Position numbers and translations under genes: made by a program. This document shows, in pieces, positions 2 to 31,048 of a stretch of 32,886 nt of DNA. The stretch's first letter is position 1, and every line of letters begins with the position of its first letter. The DNA lies in IMG/VR virus record IMGVR_UViG_3300024294_000605, positions 1 through 32,886 of that record. One strand, written 5' to 3'. Under the pieces are notes generated by a model, which was not told the DNA's origin, made no database searches, and saw nothing but the letters and a program-made list of their open reading frames with translations. This DNA is from a virus.

Positions 2-68
2 GAAGAAACTGAAGCAGTAGAAGAAACTGAAGAAGAAGAAACTGAAGCAGTAGAAGAAACTGAAACAG
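2..68 (+). repeat. In-frame 18-nt tandem repeat coding EETEAV-type units
   Basis: The unit GAAGAAACTGAAGCAGTA recurs with small indels at the left edge of the window and encodes Glu/Thr-rich repeats. It probably continues upstream. It forms an acidic stretch of the scaffold-like protein. Confidence 0.7.
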
Positions 69-604
69 TAGATACATTAGATGCTTACAAATCTGAAATT
101 AGTTCTAAATTATCTGCTTTAATCGAAAAAGCAACTGTTAAAGAAAATACTAACCCTCATTTCTTTAGATTTATTTCTGAAGCTAAGAAAGCAGAATATA
201 ACGAATTAAATACTGAAGATCAATCTAAAGTATTAAAATCAATCGAAGGAAAAGGATTCTTAACTGAAGGACAAATTCTTACATTATGGAACTCTTCATT
301 AATAAATAGCGTTAAAACTAACGAACCTAATGTTATTGAAATGATGCCAGAAGAATATAAAGAAGCATGGTCTAACATGTCAGATAACAAGAAAACAGCT
401 CTTATAGCTCAATCTAAATACCATAAACTAGAAACTGCTTACCAAGTAAGAAACTTCTGGCAAACTAGAGATCTTAGAGATGTCAAAGTTGTTATGGAAA
501 AAGTAGAATCAGTAAATGAAGCTGCTCCTGTTATTGAAGACAAAAAACCTTTATATGATTTAACTAATGTTAAGAAGTCTATTAACAAGAGATTCAACAA
601 GTAA
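2..604 (+). CDS. Prohead core/scaffold-like protein, C-terminal part (gp22-like)
   Basis: The frame is open from base 2 to the stop, so the N-terminus lies outside the window; 200 residues are visible. The first ~22 residues are acidic repeats of the type EETEAV, followed by a mostly helical, charged region and a basic C-terminus (KSINKRFNK). In T4 the gene just before the major capsid gene is the gp22 scaffold, which the gp21 protease digests at (L/I)xE|(A/G/S). Two such sites are visible: ISE|A (visible residues 58-60) and LTE|G (87-89). Position, acidity and cleavage-like sites all fit a head-core protein. A fusion to a prohead protease upstream cannot be excluded. The function is inferred from context, not from recognised family similarity. 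Confidence 0.6.
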   Translation, partial: EETEAVEETEEEETEAVEETETVDTLDAYKSEISSKLSALIEKATVKENTNPHFFRFISEAKKAEYNELNTEDQSKVLKSIEGKGFLTEGQILTLWNSSLINSVKTNEPNVIEMMPEEYKEAWSNMSDNKKTALIAQSKYHKLETAYQVRNFWQTRDLRDVKVVMEKVESVNEAAPVIEDKKPLYDLTNVKKSINKRFNK

Positions 605-759: not shown

Positions 760-2199
760 ATGGCAAATTTAATTAACTCTGCAGAAGTTAGAGAAACTTG
801 GGCTCCGATCATCGAATCAGCTACAGGTATCAACGAAGCAGAAAAACTAGCGTGGATGTCAGAATACTGTCATAACCACAAACTTTACGAAGATGCACAC
901 ATCATGTCTTTAGGGACTGCTGGTAACATCTACGGTATGGGTAATGTATCTTTACCTTCTGCAACTGCAGACGGTTCAGGTGATAAAGCTCCTACATTAT
1001 TACCATTAGCAATGCAAGTTGCTGCACAAACTATAGGTTTAGACTTAGTACCAGTTGTACCAATGGCTGGACCAATGGGTCTTTTATCTTACTTAGACTT
1101 CGTTTACGAAGGTGGTAAATTAGCTGGAGATGTTGCTCCAACTTACATCAAAACTGACGCTGCTAAAGCTGAGGTAGATGGTAACGAATCAGGTGGATTT
1201 ACTTTCACTTGGATCGGTTCTTCTAGAATTGACAACATGGATATCTATAAAGTTGCTGAAGCAGCTTCTACTTCAGGTTCTGTTGCTGATGCAATCAACG
1301 CATTAGATACTGAAGTTGATGCAGATGATGCTACTATCGCTATTGTTAAATCAGTAGAATTAGTAAAAGGTTTAGAAGATCATATTAAAGGATTCGCTGC
1401 TGCTGACGAAGATGGTAACCCATTCTCAAGAGGTGCAGGTGAACAAACTCCTGACAAAGTTATGGGTCTTTCTTTATTCTCAAAAAGTGTTGCTGCTGAA
1501 ACTTTCCAAGTTGCTGCTGCAGTTACTAGAGAACAAGTACAAGATCTTAAACAATTCGGTGTAGATGCTGTTGCTCAAGTTGAGTCAGTATTAACTAACG
1601 AATTAACTCAGTCAATCAACAACTTAATCTTAGCTAAACTTAATTCTTTAGGTAAAGATAACGTTACAGCTGCTGGTGTAAATTTAGACTGTAATTTAGC
1701 ATTAAATGCTGATTTCGGTGGTGAGACTATCGCTTCTAACCATAGAAGAATCTTAACTTCAATCCTTGCTGCTGCGAACTTTATCGCAAACAGAGGTAGA
1801 AGAGGTGCTGGTAACTTTTGTGTTGTAGGTCCTAAAGTGGCTACAGCTTTACAATCAGTTGCTGGTTTCGTTGCTAACCCAATGGCTAACACATTATCAC
1901 AAGCAGCAGGTGCAATCTACCCAGTAGGTTCTGTAGCTGGTGTAAATGTATACACTGACCCAAGACAAGCATGGGGAGCTAATGATTCTAATTACGAAGT
2001 AGTAGTTGGTAGAAAAGGTGACGGTAATGGTCCTGGATTAGTATTCATGCCTTACTTAATGGCTGAATCAGTACAAACAATCGCTGAAGGAACTATGGCT
2101 CCTAAAGTAGCTGTTAAATCTAGATTCGCATTAGTTGAAGCAGGTTTCCACCCAGAAACTCAATATGTTACATACGAAGTTAAAGGATTAGCTCTTTAA
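760..2199 (+). CDS. 23: Major capsid protein, T4 gp23-like
   Basis: 479 residues (T4 gp23 has 521). Several gp23 signatures are readable: an N-terminal ETWAPIIES segment like T4 NKWKPLLEG; VPVVPMAGPMGLLSYLDFVY like the T4 VQPMNSPTG region; RRGAGNFCVVGPKVATAL like T4 GEGNFIIASRNVV; and a C-terminus ending EVKGLAL like T4 YVKGI. The protein builds the icosahedral head shell. In T4 the precursor is cut by the gp21 protease after LTE|AE; here INE|AE at residues 24-26 is a candidate, but it is much nearer the N-terminus than the T4 site, so processing is uncertain. The gene follows the scaffold-like gene as in T4 and ends at a strong terminator. The start has an A-rich leader and no Shine-Dalgarno. 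Confidence 0.93.
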   Translation: MANLINSAEVRETWAPIIESATGINEAEKLAWMSEYCHNHKLYEDAHIMSLGTAGNIYGMGNVSLPSATADGSGDKAPTLLPLAMQVAAQTIGLDLVPVVPMAGPMGLLSYLDFVYEGGKLAGDVAPTYIKTDAAKAEVDGNESGGFTFTWIGSSRIDNMDIYKVAEAASTSGSVADAINALDTEVDADDATIAIVKSVELVKGLEDHIKGFAAADEDGNPFSRGAGEQTPDKVMGLSLFSKSVAAETFQVAAAVTREQVQDLKQFGVDAVAQVESVLTNELTQSINNLILAKLNSLGKDNVTAAGVNLDCNLALNADFGGETIASNHRRILTSILAAANFIANRGRRGAGNFCVVGPKVATALQSVAGFVANPMANTLSQAAGAIYPVGSVAGVNVYTDPRQAWGANDSNYEVVVGRKGDGNGPGLVFMPYLMAESVQTIAEGTMAPKVAVKSRFALVEAGFHPETQYVTYEVKGLAL

Positions 2200-2227: not shown

Positions 2228-2257
2228 AAAGGTCCTCTATTTTAGAGGACCTTTTTT
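2228..2257 (+). terminator. Intrinsic terminator after the capsid gene
   Basis: AGGTCCTCTA and TAGAGGACCT form a perfect stem with a 3-nt loop, followed by a run of T. It lies 30 nt after the capsid stop codon. Confidence 0.9.
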
Positions 2258-2319: not shown

Positions 2320-3705
2320 ATGAAAACATTCGAACAATGGTATAATTCTACAAAAAAGGCTGATTCAATAGATGAAGCTTCTGAAGATAATATACCTGTA
2401 GCTAAATCATCAACTTCAATAGAATCAGACACAACTACTGCCATAGCCTCTCCGGAAGCAACGGGAGAAGAGGGTTATTCTAAAATGATGCAAGATTGTG
2501 ATGATATTATCAATTCTCTAAAAACACTTTCTGATCAACTTACGGAATCAGAAGATCAACCATTAAATGAAGCAAATCCTATGGGACAGGTGCTTATGGA
2601 AGATCCTATTATTATGGGAGCAGTTCTAGGATTAACGGCAGTTATTGGTGCAGTTGGTTTAGGTGCAAAGGCTATAAAAGATGGTGCTAAAAATAAAAAG
2701 ACCATTAAAGAAGCAGAAAAAGATTATTCTAAATTAAAGAAATTAAAAATGCAAACCGTTAAAATGGAAGTTGCAGTATTATCTTTAGAGGATAAAAGAA
2801 GAGAACTTTCAACTACTGAATCAATCGAAGAAGCTGGAGATGATGTAAAGGCGAAGGCAAGCGCAGCAAATAAGAAAAAAGCACTTCAAAAAATGAAAGC
2901 CAAGTTAGATAATCAAATAGAATCTATGAGGCAGAAAAAAGATGGAATTAATTCAGCTGCTACAGAATATGGATCTTCATTAGAAGTTAAATACTCAAAG
3001 GTAAGTGGATTTGGATCTGGAAAAGTTAAAACGTTAATCGCTGATATGAGAGATCAAATCACGACAGAAGTTTCAGAATATAAGCTAGATGCATGGGGAG
3101 ATAAGATGAGTGCCGAGACTAAGAAAGATTTAAAAGAAAGAATTACAAAATCTAAACAGGCTCAAAAGGAGAGAATGGATAAAATAACAGCTGAGCAAGA
3201 GAAAAATGCTAAGAAGTTAGATGATGCAGCTAAAAATGACGAAAAGGTTAAAGCTGAGCTAGAGCAAATAAAGGCTGAAAAAGAAAAAGGAAAAGAAAAA
3301 GAAGAAGCTCCAGAGGAAACTCCAGAAGAAACTCCAGAAGAAACTCCAACGGAGACTCCGGAAGAAACTCCAGAAAAAGAAGATGATTTCGATGCATTTG
3401 GAACGGATGGAGACGATGAAGAATCTCCTGAAGAAGAAACGGAAGAAGTCGATAAGACAGATAACTCAAAGGAAGGAATGACCAAAAGAGTTGATGCTGT
3501 TATTGCAAAGGCAGAAGAGAGTGGAGATGAAGCAAAGCTTAAAAAAGCAAAAGAACTTAAAGCTAAAATTCTTGCAAAAGAATCTTGGCAATTAAATAAT
3601 ACTAAATTAGGGTTAATATTTGAATCCGATCTTAGAAAAATGGAAATGGAATCTTTAATACAAGAGTCTATTTCAGTTAAAGATCGTTTCTCTAAACTAA
3701 TCTAA
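2320..3705 (+). CDS. Candidate internal head protein with capsid-targeting N-terminus
   Basis: 461 residues, strongly charged. The N-terminus MKTFEQWYNS aligns with the T4 capsid-targeting sequence MKTYQEFIAE of internal proteins IPI-III. It is followed by IDE|A (residues 17-19) and LNE|A (82-84), both fitting the (L/I)xE|(A/G/S) prohead-protease rule. Residues ~97-117 are hydrophobic (Gly/Ala/Val/Ile, possible membrane segment). Residues ~120-330 are Lys/Glu-rich and predicted helical or coiled coil. Residues ~330-360 carry EETP repeats, then an acidic stretch. The C-terminus has more LxE/IxE sites (LIQE|S). The gene sits directly after the capsid gene behind a late-type motif. I infer a protein packaged in the head, processed, and perhaps ejected with DNA. 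No homologue of known function is recognised. Confidence 0.6.
   Translation: MKTFEQWYNSTKKADSIDEASEDNIPVAKSSTSIESDTTTAIASPEATGEEGYSKMMQDCDDIINSLKTLSDQLTESEDQPLNEANPMGQVLMEDPIIMGAVLGLTAVIGAVGLGAKAIKDGAKNKKTIKEAEKDYSKLKKLKMQTVKMEVAVLSLEDKRRELSTTESIEEAGDDVKAKASAANKKKALQKMKAKLDNQIESMRQKKDGINSAATEYGSSLEVKYSKVSGFGSGKVKTLIADMRDQITTEVSEYKLDAWGDKMSAETKKDLKERITKSKQAQKERMDKITAEQEKNAKKLDDAAKNDEKVKAELEQIKAEKEKGKEKEEAPEETPEETPEETPTETPEETPEKEDDFDAFGTDGDDEESPEEETEEVDKTDNSKEGMTKRVDAVIAKAEESGDEAKLKKAKELKAKILAKESWQLNNTKLGLIFESDLRKMEMESLIQESISVKDRFSKLI
3307..3378 (+). repeat. 12-nt in-frame tandem repeats coding EETP
   Basis: About six copies of a GAAACTCCAGAA-type unit encode consecutive EETP/TETP/EKE units in the internal protein. 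The spurious antisense open frames over this region result from the skewed composition. Confidence 0.75.
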
Positions 3706-4209
3706 ATTCTTTTTAGAATTTTTACGAGCTAAATTTAGAAACTCCTGTTGTTGATTCAATAGGAGTTTTTTTATGTGCTTACGGAACTCTATCGATGACT
3801 TAAGTATTCTAGCATCTACCATAGGAGCCAGTAATGCATCATGATACTCTGGATGAACAAAGTTTTCCAAGCTAAAGTTATCAGTCTTAGATCTGATAGG
3901 TTTACCAGATAGTGCACAGACCCAATCTATTGTGTTATAGTTTTCTTTAAGATCTTCCATCTTCACAAACGAATCAGTAGACCAATCATAATAATACTTA
4001 TTTTTAGAGGAAGTATATCTATGTTGACATATATTGAATATGATATGAACGAACTGATCGCTTTCACACCTTTCACCTAAAATAGGATTTTCTATTAATA
4101 GTCTCTTCTGCTGTCTTGCAAGATTTGATAACTTAATTCCAAATCTATTAGAATAAGGAGAATGAGGGGAAACCCTTTCCAATTTGGGATATTTTTTATT
4201 ATATGCCAT
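3697..4209 (-). CDS. Unknown protein, lone minus-strand gene
   Basis: 170 residues, basic, beginning MAYNKKYPKLERVSPHSPYS. I do not recognise the family. It contains WVCALSGKPIRSKTDN and several Cys/His residues (CESD, ICQH, WVCAL) that are not spaced as a clear zinc finger, and it ends in a basic helix. It is the only minus-strand gene in the first 32 kb. It overlaps the end of the internal-protein gene by 9 bp (convergent) and is divergent from the clamp-loader gene, with a 59-bp AT-rich gap. Coding is supported by an unbroken frame of natural-looking composition filling the gap between two plus-strand genes. It could be a DNA-modulating or nuclease-type accessory protein, but nothing in the sequence proves that. 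Confidence 0.7.
   Translation of the reverse strand: MAYNKKYPKLERVSPHSPYSNRFGIKLSNLARQQKRLLIENPILGERCESDQFVHIIFNICQHRYTSSKNKYYYDWSTDSFVKMEDLKENYNTIDWVCALSGKPIRSKTDNFSLENFVHPEYHDALLAPMVDARILKSSIEFRKHIKKLLLNQQQEFLNLARKNSKKNLD
3739..3773 (+). terminator. Intrinsic terminator lying inside the antisense gene's 3' end
   Basis: AAACTCCT (3739-3746) pairs with AGGAGTTT (3761-3768) and is followed by T residues. It would stop plus-strand transcription from the internal-protein gene, yet it lies within the coding sequence of the convergent minus-strand gene. A weaker 7-bp hairpin (3704-3721) precedes it. Confidence 0.75.
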
Positions 4210-17011: not shown

Positions 17012-17458
17012 ATGAAAAAAGTAAAATCATATAATAATTTCGTAAACGAATCTTTAATTACTGAAATTATAGATCCTATCACCTTAACATTTGCTATAGC
17101 AGGAATAGGTATAGCGTTTGGACCTGAAATCATGAAAGCATATAGATCGAGAAAAATATCTAATGCAGATCTTAAAGATCTTACGAAGATGTTATCTAAG
17201 GCTAAAGCTAAGGCAAAGAAATATGAAAGACAAGGTCTAGATCATGATTCTGCAGAAGCACAGTCTGAAGTAGATCATATTGAAGCAAGAATAGATGATC
17301 TTCGAGGTGAAATGAGTAACCATGATGAAATTATTAAAGATTTTGAAAAGGATAAAAAGACACATAAGGAACTAGAACAGGAACTTAAAGATGTTGATCC
17401 TGAAGTTTTAAGAAAGGCATTAAGAGATGCAAAGAAAGAAGCTTCTAAATTAAAATAA
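17012..17458 (+). CDS. Second candidate capsid-targeted protein with hydrophobic segment
   Basis: 148 residues. The N-terminal SYNNFVNES (residues 6-14) aligns position by position with TYQEFIAEA of the T4 capsid-targeting sequence. It is followed by ITE|I at 16-18, which fits IxE of the prohead-protease site but has Ile rather than Ala/Gly/Ser after it. A hydrophobic segment (~19-40) comes next, then a Lys/Glu-rich helical coiled coil to the C-terminus (Arg/Lys/Asp/Glu heptads). This layout repeats, in small form, that of the internal protein encoded after the capsid gene. Oddly, it lies among tail genes, 17 nt upstream of the tape-measure-like gene. It could be ejected with the genome or be a tail-core protein. 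No homologue of known function is recognised. Confidence 0.6.
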   Translation: MKKVKSYNNFVNESLITEIIDPITLTFAIAGIGIAFGPEIMKAYRSRKISNADLKDLTKMLSKAKAKAKKYERQGLDHDSAEAQSEVDHIEARIDDLRGEMSNHDEIIKDFEKDKKTHKELEQELKDVDPEVLRKALRDAKKEASKLK

Positions 17459-21011: not shown

Positions 21012-21096
21012 GGAGAAGTGGCAGAGTGGTCGAATGCACTGGTCTTGAAAACCAGCGAACTTCACGGTTCCAGGGGTTCGAATCCCTTCTTCTCCG
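21012..21096 (+). tRNA. tRNA-Ser (anticodon TGA)
   Basis: The acceptor stem GGAGAAG pairs with CTTCTCC (21089-21095). The anticodon arm CTGGT-CTTGAAA-ACCAG carries TGA. A long variable arm, as expected for tRNA-Ser, and a T-arm AGGGG-TTCGAAT-CCCTT follow. The discriminator is G and CCA is not encoded. It reads UCA codons, which are frequent in this AT-rich genome. Confidence 0.95.
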
Positions 21097-21101
21097 CAAT
21101 T

Positions 21102-21178
21102 GGTCTGGTAGTTCAGTTGGTTAGAATACATGCCTGTCACGCATGGGGTCGCGAGTTCGAGTCTCGTCCAGACCGCCA
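21102..21178 (+). tRNA. tRNA-Asp (anticodon GTC), CCA encoded
   Basis: The acceptor stem GGTCTGG pairs with CCAGACC (21168-21174). The anticodon arm CATGC-CTGTCAC-GCATG gives GTC. The T-arm contains GTTCGAGTC. Discriminator G is followed by an encoded CCA (21176-21178), unlike the neighbouring tRNA-Ser five bases upstream. Confidence 0.95.
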
Positions 21179-22003: not shown

Positions 22004-22582
22004 ATGAAATCAAGAAAATTTAGCATTTCAGGATTATTAGAATTAAGACCTGGAAAATTTGAAGATGAAAGAGGAGAGTTTATAGAAACATTCAAATCTT
22101 CAAAACTTAAAGAACTTGGAATTACAGAAGAATTTCTACAAGATAATCAATCTGTTTCTAAGAAAGGAGTATTTAGAGGAATACATTTACAAACCGGAGA
22201 TAGTGCTCAAGGAAAATTAGTAAGAGTTTCTAAAGGAGCTGTTGTAGATTTCGCAGTAGATCTTAGACCTGGTTCCCCATCCTATGGAGAATGGACTTAT
22301 GTATTATTAAGTGCGCACGTAGGAAATCAATTTTGGATTCCGGCCGGATTTGGCCATGCGTTTCTTGCCCTTGAGGATGATACAATCTTTTCATATAAAT
22401 GTACTAAAGAATATGATAAGAGTGCAGAGGAGTGTCTCCTATGGACCGACAAGGATATAGATCTGACTATAGATAAGAGTATACTTACACAATTCAATAT
22501 ATCAGACATCTTAGTCTCCGAAAAGGATAAAGAAGGTATTACGCTAAAGGAATATACTAAAAAATATGGCGTACTGGTTTAA
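22004..22582 (+). CDS. dTDP-4-dehydrorhamnose 3,5-epimerase-like (RmlC family)
   Basis: 192 residues. Cupin-type RmlC motifs in order: FEDERGEFIETF, LQDNQSVSKKGVFRGIHLQ (catalytic-type H61), QGKLVRVSKGAVVDFAVDLRPGSPSYG, FWIPAGFGHAFLAL, and FSYKCTKEYDKSAEECLLWTDKDIDL (Tyr131 and an acidic residue as in the family). Enzymes of this family epimerise keto-deoxy sugar nucleotides on the way to rhamnose and related sugars. The exact substrate cannot be read from sequence. It may work with the SDR epimerase gene about 5 kb downstream to make a sugar for glycosylation of DNA, virion or host surface (inference). It overlaps the next gene by 17 nt. Confidence 0.85.
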   Translation: MKSRKFSISGLLELRPGKFEDERGEFIETFKSSKLKELGITEEFLQDNQSVSKKGVFRGIHLQTGDSAQGKLVRVSKGAVVDFAVDLRPGSPSYGEWTYVLLSAHVGNQFWIPAGFGHAFLALEDDTIFSYKCTKEYDKSAEECLLWTDKDIDLTIDKSILTQFNISDILVSEKDKEGITLKEYTKKYGVLV

Positions 22583-25549: not shown

Positions 25550-26383
25550 ATGCCAGAATTAGCAGAATTAAAATTTACAGCAGATTACGTTAACCAAATG
25601 TCGGAAGGCATGAAATATGTTAACGTAGTAAAAAACCCAGAACATAAGTGTGAAGATCTAAATATACCCTTTAAGTTTTTTAAAATTAAAGCAGAATCTA
25701 GGGGTAAGGAAATGGTTCTTCTTATTTTAGATAATGATTCTGATAAAATTATTCCAATTCGAATGACAATGGGAATGAGCGGGTATTTTAAATTGACTAA
25801 TACTGGCGACGAAGCAAAACATTCACACCTTAAATTTCATCGCAAAGACGGAACAACCCTTTCATTTGTAGATATGCGTAGATTTGGCAAGTGGAAGCAG
25901 GGTTTATGGTGGAATGATACACGAGGGGAGGATCCAACGACCTCCTTTGATTCTTTTTGGAAAGATATAATGACTAATCTAACGTCACGCGCTTTCAGGA
26001 AACCACTCTATGAAGTCCTGATGAACCAAAAATATTTTAATGGAATAGGAAATTACCTAAGAGCGGAGATTATTTATAGAGCCAAAGATGTAGATCCGTT
26101 TCTTCCAGCTGGAATGCAACTAGCAAAATACCCTAAAATACTAGAACTATGTAAAGATATTCCAATGCTAGCATACGCAAAAGGAGGAGGAAGCATTAAA
26201 GATTGGGATAATCCATTCGGAACAGATGCTATTCAAGAAAAATTCATGCTATGTTATGGAAATCCTGTTATGTCGAAAAGAAAAGATTCGAATGGAAGAA
26301 CATTTTGGTATGATTCTAAATGGGACAATGTTCCTACAAGTAGAGACGATTTAAAAGAATATTTCCATGGCGATAGAAGCTAA
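25550..26383 (+). CDS. Formamidopyrimidine/endonuclease VIII-type DNA glycosylase
   Basis: 277 residues. The N-terminus MPELAE provides the Pro2 nucleophile and Glu3 of the Fpg/Nei family (usual PELPE/PEGPE). RGKEMVLL gives the conserved Lys (K53), then MGMSGYF, DMRRFGKW, and the H2TH core NQKYFNGIGNYLRAEIIYRA. The C-terminal region, normally a four-Cys zinc finger, reads CYGNPVMSKRKDSNGRTFWYDSKW: only one Cys remains but the GRTFWY hairpin is kept, like zincless fingers. It would remove oxidised bases and nick the AP site. It overlaps the next gene by 17 nt. Confidence 0.9.
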   Translation: MPELAELKFTADYVNQMSEGMKYVNVVKNPEHKCEDLNIPFKFFKIKAESRGKEMVLLILDNDSDKIIPIRMTMGMSGYFKLTNTGDEAKHSHLKFHRKDGTTLSFVDMRRFGKWKQGLWWNDTRGEDPTTSFDSFWKDIMTNLTSRAFRKPLYEVLMNQKYFNGIGNYLRAEIIYRAKDVDPFLPAGMQLAKYPKILELCKDIPMLAYAKGGGSIKDWDNPFGTDAIQEKFMLCYGNPVMSKRKDSNGRTFWYDSKWDNVPTSRDDLKEYFHGDRS

Positions 26384-27425: not shown

Positions 27426-28319
27426 ATGAAAAACGTATTAGTCACAGGTGGTGCAGGATTTGTCGGAAGCAACCTCATTAAACACCTACAGGAAACCTAC
27501 CCAAAAATTAAAATAACTTCATTAGATAATTACTTCACGGGAAAAGAAGAAAATCATGTTCCTGGCGTAACCTATTATAGAGGACATACTTGGGAAGCAG
27601 ATACTATTTTTGAAAAATTAACAGAAGAAAATTACTTTGACACTGTATTTCACTTTGGAGAATATAGTAGAATTGTTCAATCGTTTGAAGATATTGATTT
27701 TGTTCATAGGTCTATTCTATCTGGAACACCTGTTATATTAGAACTATGTAGAAAATGGAATTCAAAGTTAATTTATTCTGCATCTAGTTCTAAATTCGGT
27801 AACAACGGTGAAGATGAGAATCTTTCTCCTTATGCTTGGATGAAATCTAAGATGGTAGAATTAATCAAAAACTATAATACATGGTATGATCTTCAATATG
27901 AGATCTGTTATTTCTTTAATGTATATGGACCTGGCCAAATTACATCAGGTGATTATGCAACAGTTGTCGGTATTTTTGAAAGACAATTTAAAGCAGGTGA
28001 AAAGTGTTCAGTAGTTTCTCCTGGAAATCAAAGCAGAGACTTCACACACGTTGAAGACGTAGTTACAGCTCTTGGATTAGCAGCACAGAGAAAAGACAAT
28101 CACGAATGGCACCTGAGAAGCGGAGTTAATACTACAATGATAGAATTAGCAGAAATGTATGGTGATTGGGTAATGATTCCTGAAAGAAGAGGCGAAAGGT
28201 TTACAAGCGAAGACTTCCCATCAGACACTGAAGAAAAATTAGGCTGGAAACCAACTTGGAAATTACAAGATTGGGTAAATTTAGTAACATCATCAAAACA
28301 AGAAAAAATTAATGCATAA
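27426..28319 (+). CDS. NAD-dependent sugar epimerase/dehydratase (extended SDR)
   Basis: 297 residues. N-terminal TGGAGFVG (7-14) binds NAD. A catalytic YAWMK (Y136 and K140, YxxxK) is preceded by SASSSKFG (Ser). FNVYGPGQ and SRDFTHVEDVV are also typical of UDP-glucose 4-epimerase and related dehydratases. The substrate cannot be read directly. It could work with the RmlC-like protein on a nucleotide sugar. Its last 8 nt overlap the guanylate-kinase gene, suggesting a coupled transcript. Confidence 0.87.
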   Translation: MKNVLVTGGAGFVGSNLIKHLQETYPKIKITSLDNYFTGKEENHVPGVTYYRGHTWEADTIFEKLTEENYFDTVFHFGEYSRIVQSFEDIDFVHRSILSGTPVILELCRKWNSKLIYSASSSKFGNNGEDENLSPYAWMKSKMVELIKNYNTWYDLQYEICYFFNVYGPGQITSGDYATVVGIFERQFKAGEKCSVVSPGNQSRDFTHVEDVVTALGLAAQRKDNHEWHLRSGVNTTMIELAEMYGDWVMIPERRGERFTSEDFPSDTEEKLGWKPTWKLQDWVNLVTSSKQEKINA

Positions 28320-30448: not shown

Positions 30449-31048
30449 ATGGCTACCTACAAACAACTAACTCAAAACTTTCTAGAAACAGGATCAGATC
30501 AAGACTTCGCAGCTCTTTACAACAAGATAAAGCCAGGTCTAACTTCGTACATTTACAAAATAGTTAAAGATCGTGAAATGGCAGAAGACATTGCAGTAAA
30601 CACATTAACTAAGATGTGGACCAAAATAGAACAATATAACCCAAGTTACGGAATTACTACTTGGTTATATAGAATCGCATTTAACGACTCTTTAGGTTAT
30701 ATTAAAAAAAGAAATCAAACTACGTCTTTGAGTAAATTATCAGAATATGGTGTAGAAGTAAGTGGCACTGGATCAGTTTCAAATACTCTAAAAGATTTAG
30801 TCTTAGATCATGAAGAAAAAACTGAACAAGATTATCTAGAAGAAGATGACGCTCTTCAAGACAAATACATTAAAACTCTAGAAGCTATGCAAAATCTAAA
30901 AGAAATGTATAGAGATATTCTAGTAGACAGAATGGTAAATCATATGAAATATGACCAACTAGCAACTAAATATAAACTTCCACTGCAGACTATTAAAAAT
31001 AGAATTCGTAGAGGTAAAGCTTTAATCGTTGAAGCTGTAGAAAAATAA
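30449..31048 (+). CDS. ECF-like RNA polymerase sigma factor
   Basis: 199 residues. Region 2 spans about 24-90: DREMAEDIAVNTLTKMWTKI, then YGITTWLYRIAFNDSLGYIKKRNQ, a standard ECF sigma-2 with -10 recognition and core binding. A linker of about 50 residues follows. Region 4 spans ~142-196: NLKEMYRDILVDRMVNHMKYDQLATKYKLPLQTIKNRIRRGKALI, a helix-turn-helix. T4 gp55, its late sigma, is also small (185). This protein may direct host RNA polymerase to the late-type motif GATATATA; this is inference. It is expressed from the repeated promoter type, as expected for a middle gene that switches on late genes. Confidence 0.9.
   Translation: MATYKQLTQNFLETGSDQDFAALYNKIKPGLTSYIYKIVKDREMAEDIAVNTLTKMWTKIEQYNPSYGITTWLYRIAFNDSLGYIKKRNQTTSLSKLSEYGVEVSGTGSVSNTLKDLVLDHEEKTEQDYLEEDDALQDKYIKTLEAMQNLKEMYRDILVDRMVNHMKYDQLATKYKLPLQTIKNRIRRGKALIVEAVEK

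Follow-up and report, generated by a model that had tools for sequence, protein, structure and literature searches.

The window, that is, the whole 32,886-base stretch of DNA analysed here, is the viral record IMGVR_UViG_3300024294_000605 and comes from a marine T4-like phage of the gp23/Peptidase_S77 type. Searches of the Pfam and PHROG type identified ORFs for a gp23-type capsid protein, a terminase, a tail tube protein and a clamp-loader-like protein, and IMG/VR holds near-identical records of 160-179 kb. The relatives of the capsid protein (PAU, PTm1, pT24, MaF61 and Lak) suggest hosts among the Bacteroidota. The focal gene lies immediately after the capsid gene (Table 1), and the interval singled out by an earlier, sequence-only reading, 2320-2379, corresponds to codons 1-20 of its ORF. 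The counterpart of the convergent opposite-strand ORF adjoins, as judged by eye, a distant family member in LR756500. The motif TATAAATA, one copy of which lies 14 bases 5' of the focal start codon, was considered as a late promoter and rejected, its frequency in the window being at chance and many relatives having TATAAACA in its place. Five further intervals of the window (21012-21178, 22004-22582, 25550-26383, 27426-28319 and 30449-31048) are taken up by tRNA-Ser and tRNA-Asp genes and by ORFs that, by eye, resemble genes for a sugar epimerase, formamidopyrimidine-DNA glycosylase, NAD-dependent epimerase and sigma factor.

Table 1. Features of the window discussed in the text (arrows mark predicted cleavage; residue numbers refer to the protein in question)
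Feature	Position	Strand	Remarks
C-terminal end of fused prohead protease (Peptidase_S77) and gp22-like scaffold	2..604	+	Whole gene: L022:5785-7845
Scaffold-fusion site VNE↓A	512-520	+	Tail ...INKRFNK; tail conserved
gp23-type major capsid protein	760..2199	+	Pfam Gp23 6e-45
Capsid site LYE44↓D45	883-891	+	Conserved; alignment places it at the N-terminally sequenced mature end of the PAU capsid protein
Intrinsic-terminator-like hairpin and T-run	2228..2254	+	Between capsid gene and focal gene
Focal ORF, 461 aa, pI 4.8	2320..3705	+	Proposed prohead core protein, directly after the gp23-type major capsid gene
Capsid-targeting-type N-terminal leader, residues 1-19	2320..2376	+	Predicted cleavage IDE19↓A20
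F4 and W7 codons	2329-2331, 2338-2340	+	Both near-invariant in family
Conserved helix, residues 50-78	2467..2553	+	Consensus DVDTIxTSLETLxxELTEEL; D61, I63, L67, L70, E76 invariant
Second predicted protease site LNE84↓A85	2563..2571	+	Predicted loop; xE in 27/32
Hydrophobic segment, residues 97-115	2608..2664	+	Mean hydropathy 2.22; comparable segment in 12/42 members
Long charged helices/coiled coil, residues 112-326	2653..3297	+	AlphaFold2 model
Acidic disordered linker with EETP repeats, residues 329-378	3304..3453	+	Sequence varies among relatives
Conserved C-terminal helical region, residues 384-448	3469..3663	+	K420, W423, Q424, L430 invariant
C-terminal predicted site IQE449↓S450 and basic amphipathic tail SISVKDRFSKLI	3658..3702	+	E449 invariant, 32/32
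170-aa ORF	3697-4209	-	Convergent with focal gene; no known family
Second leader-bearing ORF, 148 aa	17012..17458	+	MKKVKSYNNFVNE↓S, then hydrophobic segment (19-37), coiled coil

The focal ORF starts with MKTFEQWYNSTKKADSIDE↓A. Among the T4 leaders, the one of IPI, MKTFKEFTSTTTPVSTITE↓A, comes closest, being identical at 8 of 20 residues and having the same register: F4, an aromatic residue at 7, I17, E19 and A20 coincide, and the I-x-E↓A ends are aligned. Over the first 20 residues the ungapped BLOSUM62 score against IPI is 41; among the 200 ORFs of a near-identical genome of 178.7 kb the runner-up has a score of 21, and 300,000 random MK+18 peptides all stayed below 41. The likeness originally proposed was to MKTYQEFIAE, the start of IPIII; it exists, but with a score of 20 (rank 2 of 200; random probability 0.008) it falls short of the likeness to IPI. 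In the T4 leader, residues 4 and 7 decide targeting, and residues 8 and 10 decide processing (PMC9026906). Compared with it, the focal leader keeps the targeting pair (F4, W7) without the processing pair at 8 and 10, and its site sits further along, at the position of ITE↓A in IPI. This exact agreement with the IPI spacing may be a coincidence, because the first site moves within the family (about residues 11-19). Other hallmarks of a T4-type leader are also found: an N-terminus of 10-20 residues of the form MKT(F/Y)xx(F/W) with residues 4 and 7 in place, an (L/I)xE end (IDE19↓A), a phage-encoded gp21-family protease (known from the near-identical genome, the window holding the end of the gene alone) and portability onto unrelated bodies.

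In about 70 viral contigs from aquatic sources, a member of the focal family follows the gene of the gp23-type capsid protein, and the members diverge to about 20-25% identity. In an alignment of 32 members (mean identity 25%), the invariant or near-invariant columns include F4 and W7 at the N-terminus and E449, F457 and L460 at the C-terminus. Of 42 non-redundant members, 37 have an aromatic-x-x-aromatic motif followed by (L/I/V/M/F)xE, and 35 of the 36 that are complete have the C-terminal pattern, against 0.5 in shuffles in each case; as the members are related and the shuffles ignore this relatedness, these counts measure constraint and not independent events. Most of the tests reported here rest on related sequences and are therefore mutually dependent. 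A deviant leader occurs in one branch (L087-L089/L094), and the distant relative in LR756500 (462 kb), which lacks the C-terminal tail, retains a leader (MKFLETYENHIEES), an LNE↓G site and the neighbouring opposite-strand ORF. A tblastn search of 50,697 phage records with the focal protein gave no match, the family profile found none in the T4 genome, and PAU has no detectable relative. The description of the protein as novel holds in so far as Pfam, PHROG and isolates (none in INPHARED) yield no match, but it is not an ORFan, since in a large group of phages it is conserved next to the capsid gene.

Both sites initially proposed to follow the gp21-type rule, IDE19↓A20 and LNE84↓A85, are present, although P1' at the second is not conserved, close relatives reading LNEQ or VKEN. 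The number of (L/I)xE sites was discarded as evidence, 9 being observed against 7.8 expected, which is chance level; what is informative is the conserved placement of the sites, and the focal protein has several conserved protease-type sites. The P1' residues observed in the family (A, S, G, E, N, K, Q, T and D) are looser than the T4 rule. The C-terminal LIQE↓S and the basic tail of 12 residues are invariant in the family; the freed tail would be basic (pI 10), and the remainder of the protein is acidic. The combination typical of gp22, a C-terminal xE↓A/S site and a short helix with RF, was found in 35 of the 36 complete members.

The enzyme that could act on these sites is encoded directly upstream of the capsid gene, as a 686-aa fusion of a Peptidase_S77 protease and a gp22-like scaffold (complete in the near-identical genome L022). 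Its protease matches Peptidase_S77 (7.8e-10), the family of T4 gp21, and phrog_207 (2e-41), and similar fused ORFs precede the capsid gene across the clade. The C-terminus of the fusion is conserved in the clade as (V/I)(N/K)E(S/A) and a helix ending (K/R)F(K/N)(K/R); this tail, [VI][NK]E[SA]...AKRFKK, resembles the focal LIQE↓SISVKDRFSKLI, as does the end of T4 gp22, FVTEA...KVASRF. A small acidic leader-bearing ORF (MKHLKTFKNYSNLTED; L022:5354-5722) lies between the portal and protease genes, the place of T4 gene 67. At the position aligned with the mature end of the PAU capsid protein, the capsid proteins of the clade have LYE and then D, except for two with E or N instead. N-terminal sequencing has shown that the mature PAU protein retains 520 of 585 residues (PMC5646251). 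Its mature end therefore lies within one residue of LME64↓N65, and thus an xE site with P1' outside A/G/S is probably used in a relative.

AlphaFold2, run on the 32-row alignment, gave a model with a mean pLDDT of 70. It consists of a helix (4-18), disorder (19-49), a helix (50-78) and a loop, followed by the coiled coil (112-326), the disordered acidic linker (329-378), a helical region (384-448), a short loop and a last helix (453-460), with sites 19, 84 and 449 in loops or at helix ends. The long charged coiled coil and the EETP repeats of the original description are present, and the body is indeed unlike IPI-III, with no T4 profile match and no Pfam or PHROG match. As to the hydrophobic hairpin, the segment 97-115 is real and the hairpin is of low confidence in the model; it was rejected as a family trait, the segment being absent from 30 of 42 members. 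The EETP repeats were similarly rejected as a functional motif, the linker being variable in the alignment. Searches of Pfam, PHROGs, NCBIfam, PDB and BFVD folds with the focal protein gave no credible match; the body has no sequence match to a known scaffold, and the fold search, with a query model that is mostly coiled coil, gave no significant match in BFVD or PDB. The gp24 vertex protein, whose gene follows gene 23 in T4, was excluded as an identity because the model is all-helical and lacks a Gp23 match.

The leader is not confined to this protein. With ORFs defined by a simple longest-ORF rule, the strict leader pattern is carried by 7 of the 200 ORFs of the near-identical genome, against 0.3 in shuffles, and by none of 142 internal M(K/N) positions. 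Among aromatic pairs near ORF starts in that genome, spacing 3 alone is enriched (25 vs 11.8), and (L/I/V)NE(A/S/G) occurs 27 times in 55,558 residues, with 6 of these falling precisely at residue 11 in ORFs that start with MK. In IMG/VR, the strict pattern MKxxKxFExF(V/I/M)NE was found at the DNA level in at least 120 stretches; the strict leader there marks at least 142 unique ORFs in at least 86 groups with bodies unrelated at E 1e-3, a set chosen by the leader whose sole informative aspect is this diversity of bodies. Among the matches listed, 100 of these 142 ORFs begin no more than 10 codons from a stop. A scan of prokaryote genomes totalling 257 Gb matched the strict pattern once, in L300, a contig of a Woesearchaeota MAG (JACPMZ010000011) that may or may not be viral. 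Of the 291 ORFs of phage PAU (NC_019521), 20 bear a leader with a different wording, MKTLxxLYE, where shuffles give 0.007; none is internal.

MK starts and acidic residues are common in this AT-rich genome, and the resemblance to T4 might in principle be due to chance. The family alignment and patterns, the IPI score of 41, the seven leader ORFs where 0.3 are expected and the IMG/VR leader set all argue against it, and the family-wide conservation makes this reading very unlikely. The N-terminal motif could also be a tag unrelated to the capsid, for example for late proteins or degradation, with the E-A/S sites incidental. Leader-bearing ORFs do include enzymes (ATP-grasp, AAA), which need not be in the head, and the number of LxE sites is at chance. 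Nevertheless, the key positions are those of the T4 leader, the leader ends in a protease-type site, and it also occurs on the small acidic portal-protease ORF; furthermore, Peptidase_S77 is present in 12 and a gp23 match in 11 of 16 large leader-bearing contigs (raw counts), and the contigs without them may be fragments. We consider such a tag improbable.

Several leader-bearing ORFs deserve mention in their own right. The second one in the window (17012-17458) has a more canonical leader and no family match, and adjoins (5') a long hydrophobic tape-measure-like ORF. The near-identical genome has four consecutive leader-bearing ORFs (L114:245-7026; 1072, 444, 105 and 568 aa), and the large ones have internal NE(A/G)-type linkers between small segments and are polyprotein-like, as if for cutting by the head protease. 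A 122-aa ORF (L113:7822-8190) starts with MKTFFEYLSE↓E, its register being exactly that of T4 IPII/IPIII, and has a hydrophobic, glycine-zipper-like C-terminus. In L208 (IMGVR_UViG_3300031566_000207), nine leader-bearing ORFs with mostly mutually unrelated bodies lie within about 15 kb. The full form of the PAU leader is MK(T/S/G)(L/I)xx(L/M)(Y/F/L)E; many such ORFs adjoin head genes, and several have a second site (LYEAKLNEA).

Leader use in T-even phages is already known (PMC12373910, PMC3012670); the literature search found no paper on the phages considered here and, for the focal phage, neither a virion proteome nor N-terminal sequences, and the published particle proteins of MA9V-1, a relative of PAU, come from an SDS gel only, without mass spectrometry. 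Like T4 IPI, the focal protein combines the MKTF..(F/W) and IxE19↓A20 register with a gp21-type protease and a leader common to unrelated bodies, whereas its body is unrelated, five times longer and extended by a C-terminal site and tail. With T4 gp22 it shares a helical, acidic character, a place in the head operon, several protease-type sites and, at the C-terminus, an xE↓A/S site ahead of a helix that has RF at its end or close to it. It differs from gp22 in having an internal-protein-type leader and no detectable sequence relation in the body, and the phage already has a gp22-like part, fused to the protease. The inner-head (ejection) proteins of phiKZ and SPN3US are also trimmed by a gp21-like protease, which removes a propeptide after xxE, and they also have repeated N-termini on diverged proteins (PMC5694885); however, several of those propeptides are longer than 100 residues and the motif in phiKZ is S/A-x-E, as opposed to about 10-20 residues and L/I/V-x-E here. 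The MKTLxxLYE ORFs of PAU again present a short common leader with a protease-type end on unrelated ORFs, many of them near head genes, but with Leu at 4 and 7.

Once injected, the internal proteins of T4 inhibit restriction (PMC12373910), and the sequence-only reading had envisaged such an ejected cargo. Under this alternative, the protein would carry the same leader, receive one or two cuts, be kept with the DNA and be injected, its hydrophobic segment then acting at the host membrane, or its coiled coil protecting the entering DNA or countering defence. The IPI-like leader and the hydrophobic segment in the focal clade are consistent with it, as are the hydrophobic or glycine-zipper segments of the 17012-17458 and L113:7822-8190 ORFs. 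Yet the segment is missing from most of the family, the removable scaffold-like tail is strictly conserved along with several sites, and the focal gene keeps its capsid-gene neighbourhood, in contrast to the variable internal-protein loci of T4. Ejection of the focal protein is possible, but we regard this alternative as rather unlikely and do not favour it over a scaffold or core function.

The best explanation, which we consider probable, is that the focal protein is a prohead core (scaffold-companion) protein with a T4-type leader that would be trimmed at both ends. The earlier interpretation is supported in part. Its proposal that the T4 code targets to the capsid a body unlike IPI-III is well supported by the near-invariant F4/W7, the (I/L/V)xE that follows, the Peptidase_S77 of the same operon and the portable tag. 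The link between leader and capsid is drawn from the T4 precedent, the gene neighbourhood and the co-occurrence of the protease. The points weighing against a core protein are the variable first site, the loose P1', the deviant leader of L087-L089/L094, the tailless LR756500 relative and a body and fold for which the searches gave no match to a known scaffold.

The leader, its conservation, the sites, the protease gene, the synteny, the tail shared with the scaffold and the portability are read directly from the sequences, and the mechanism that we infer is as follows. The leader (residues 1-19) would form a short helix whose aromatic face, F4/W7, docks the protein into the assembling core, as the T4 internal-protein leader does; the C-terminal helix, which is similar to the tail of the protease-scaffold fusion, would anchor the protein a second time, probably to the core or the shell. 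Once the prohead is complete, the gp21-type protease would cut after IDE19, LIQE449 and perhaps LNE84, freeing the coiled-coil body of about 365 residues, and the leader and tail would be discarded.

In T-even phages, this leader identifies anti-defence proteins that are injected. Somewhat more speculatively, the short removable leaders of T4-like phages of Bacteroidota-type hosts (MKxxKxFExFxNE↓A, MKTFxxWY...xE↓A and MKTLxxLYE↓A) might constitute a general head-loading address for a large set of proteins, most of them unknown, that are to be delivered; enzymes would be among them, as would polyprotein-like ORFs with cuts at internal NE↓A linkers, with the focal protein as a doubly tagged core component. 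Its C-terminal tag, common with the scaffold, is relevant to the way in which core proteins are anchored and then let go. Should the code operate in these abundant, uncultured phages as it does in T4, the N-terminal pattern would point from sequence to candidate packaged or injected proteins, most of which belong to no protein family, and the leader could be used to predict the contents of the head in this group of viruses.
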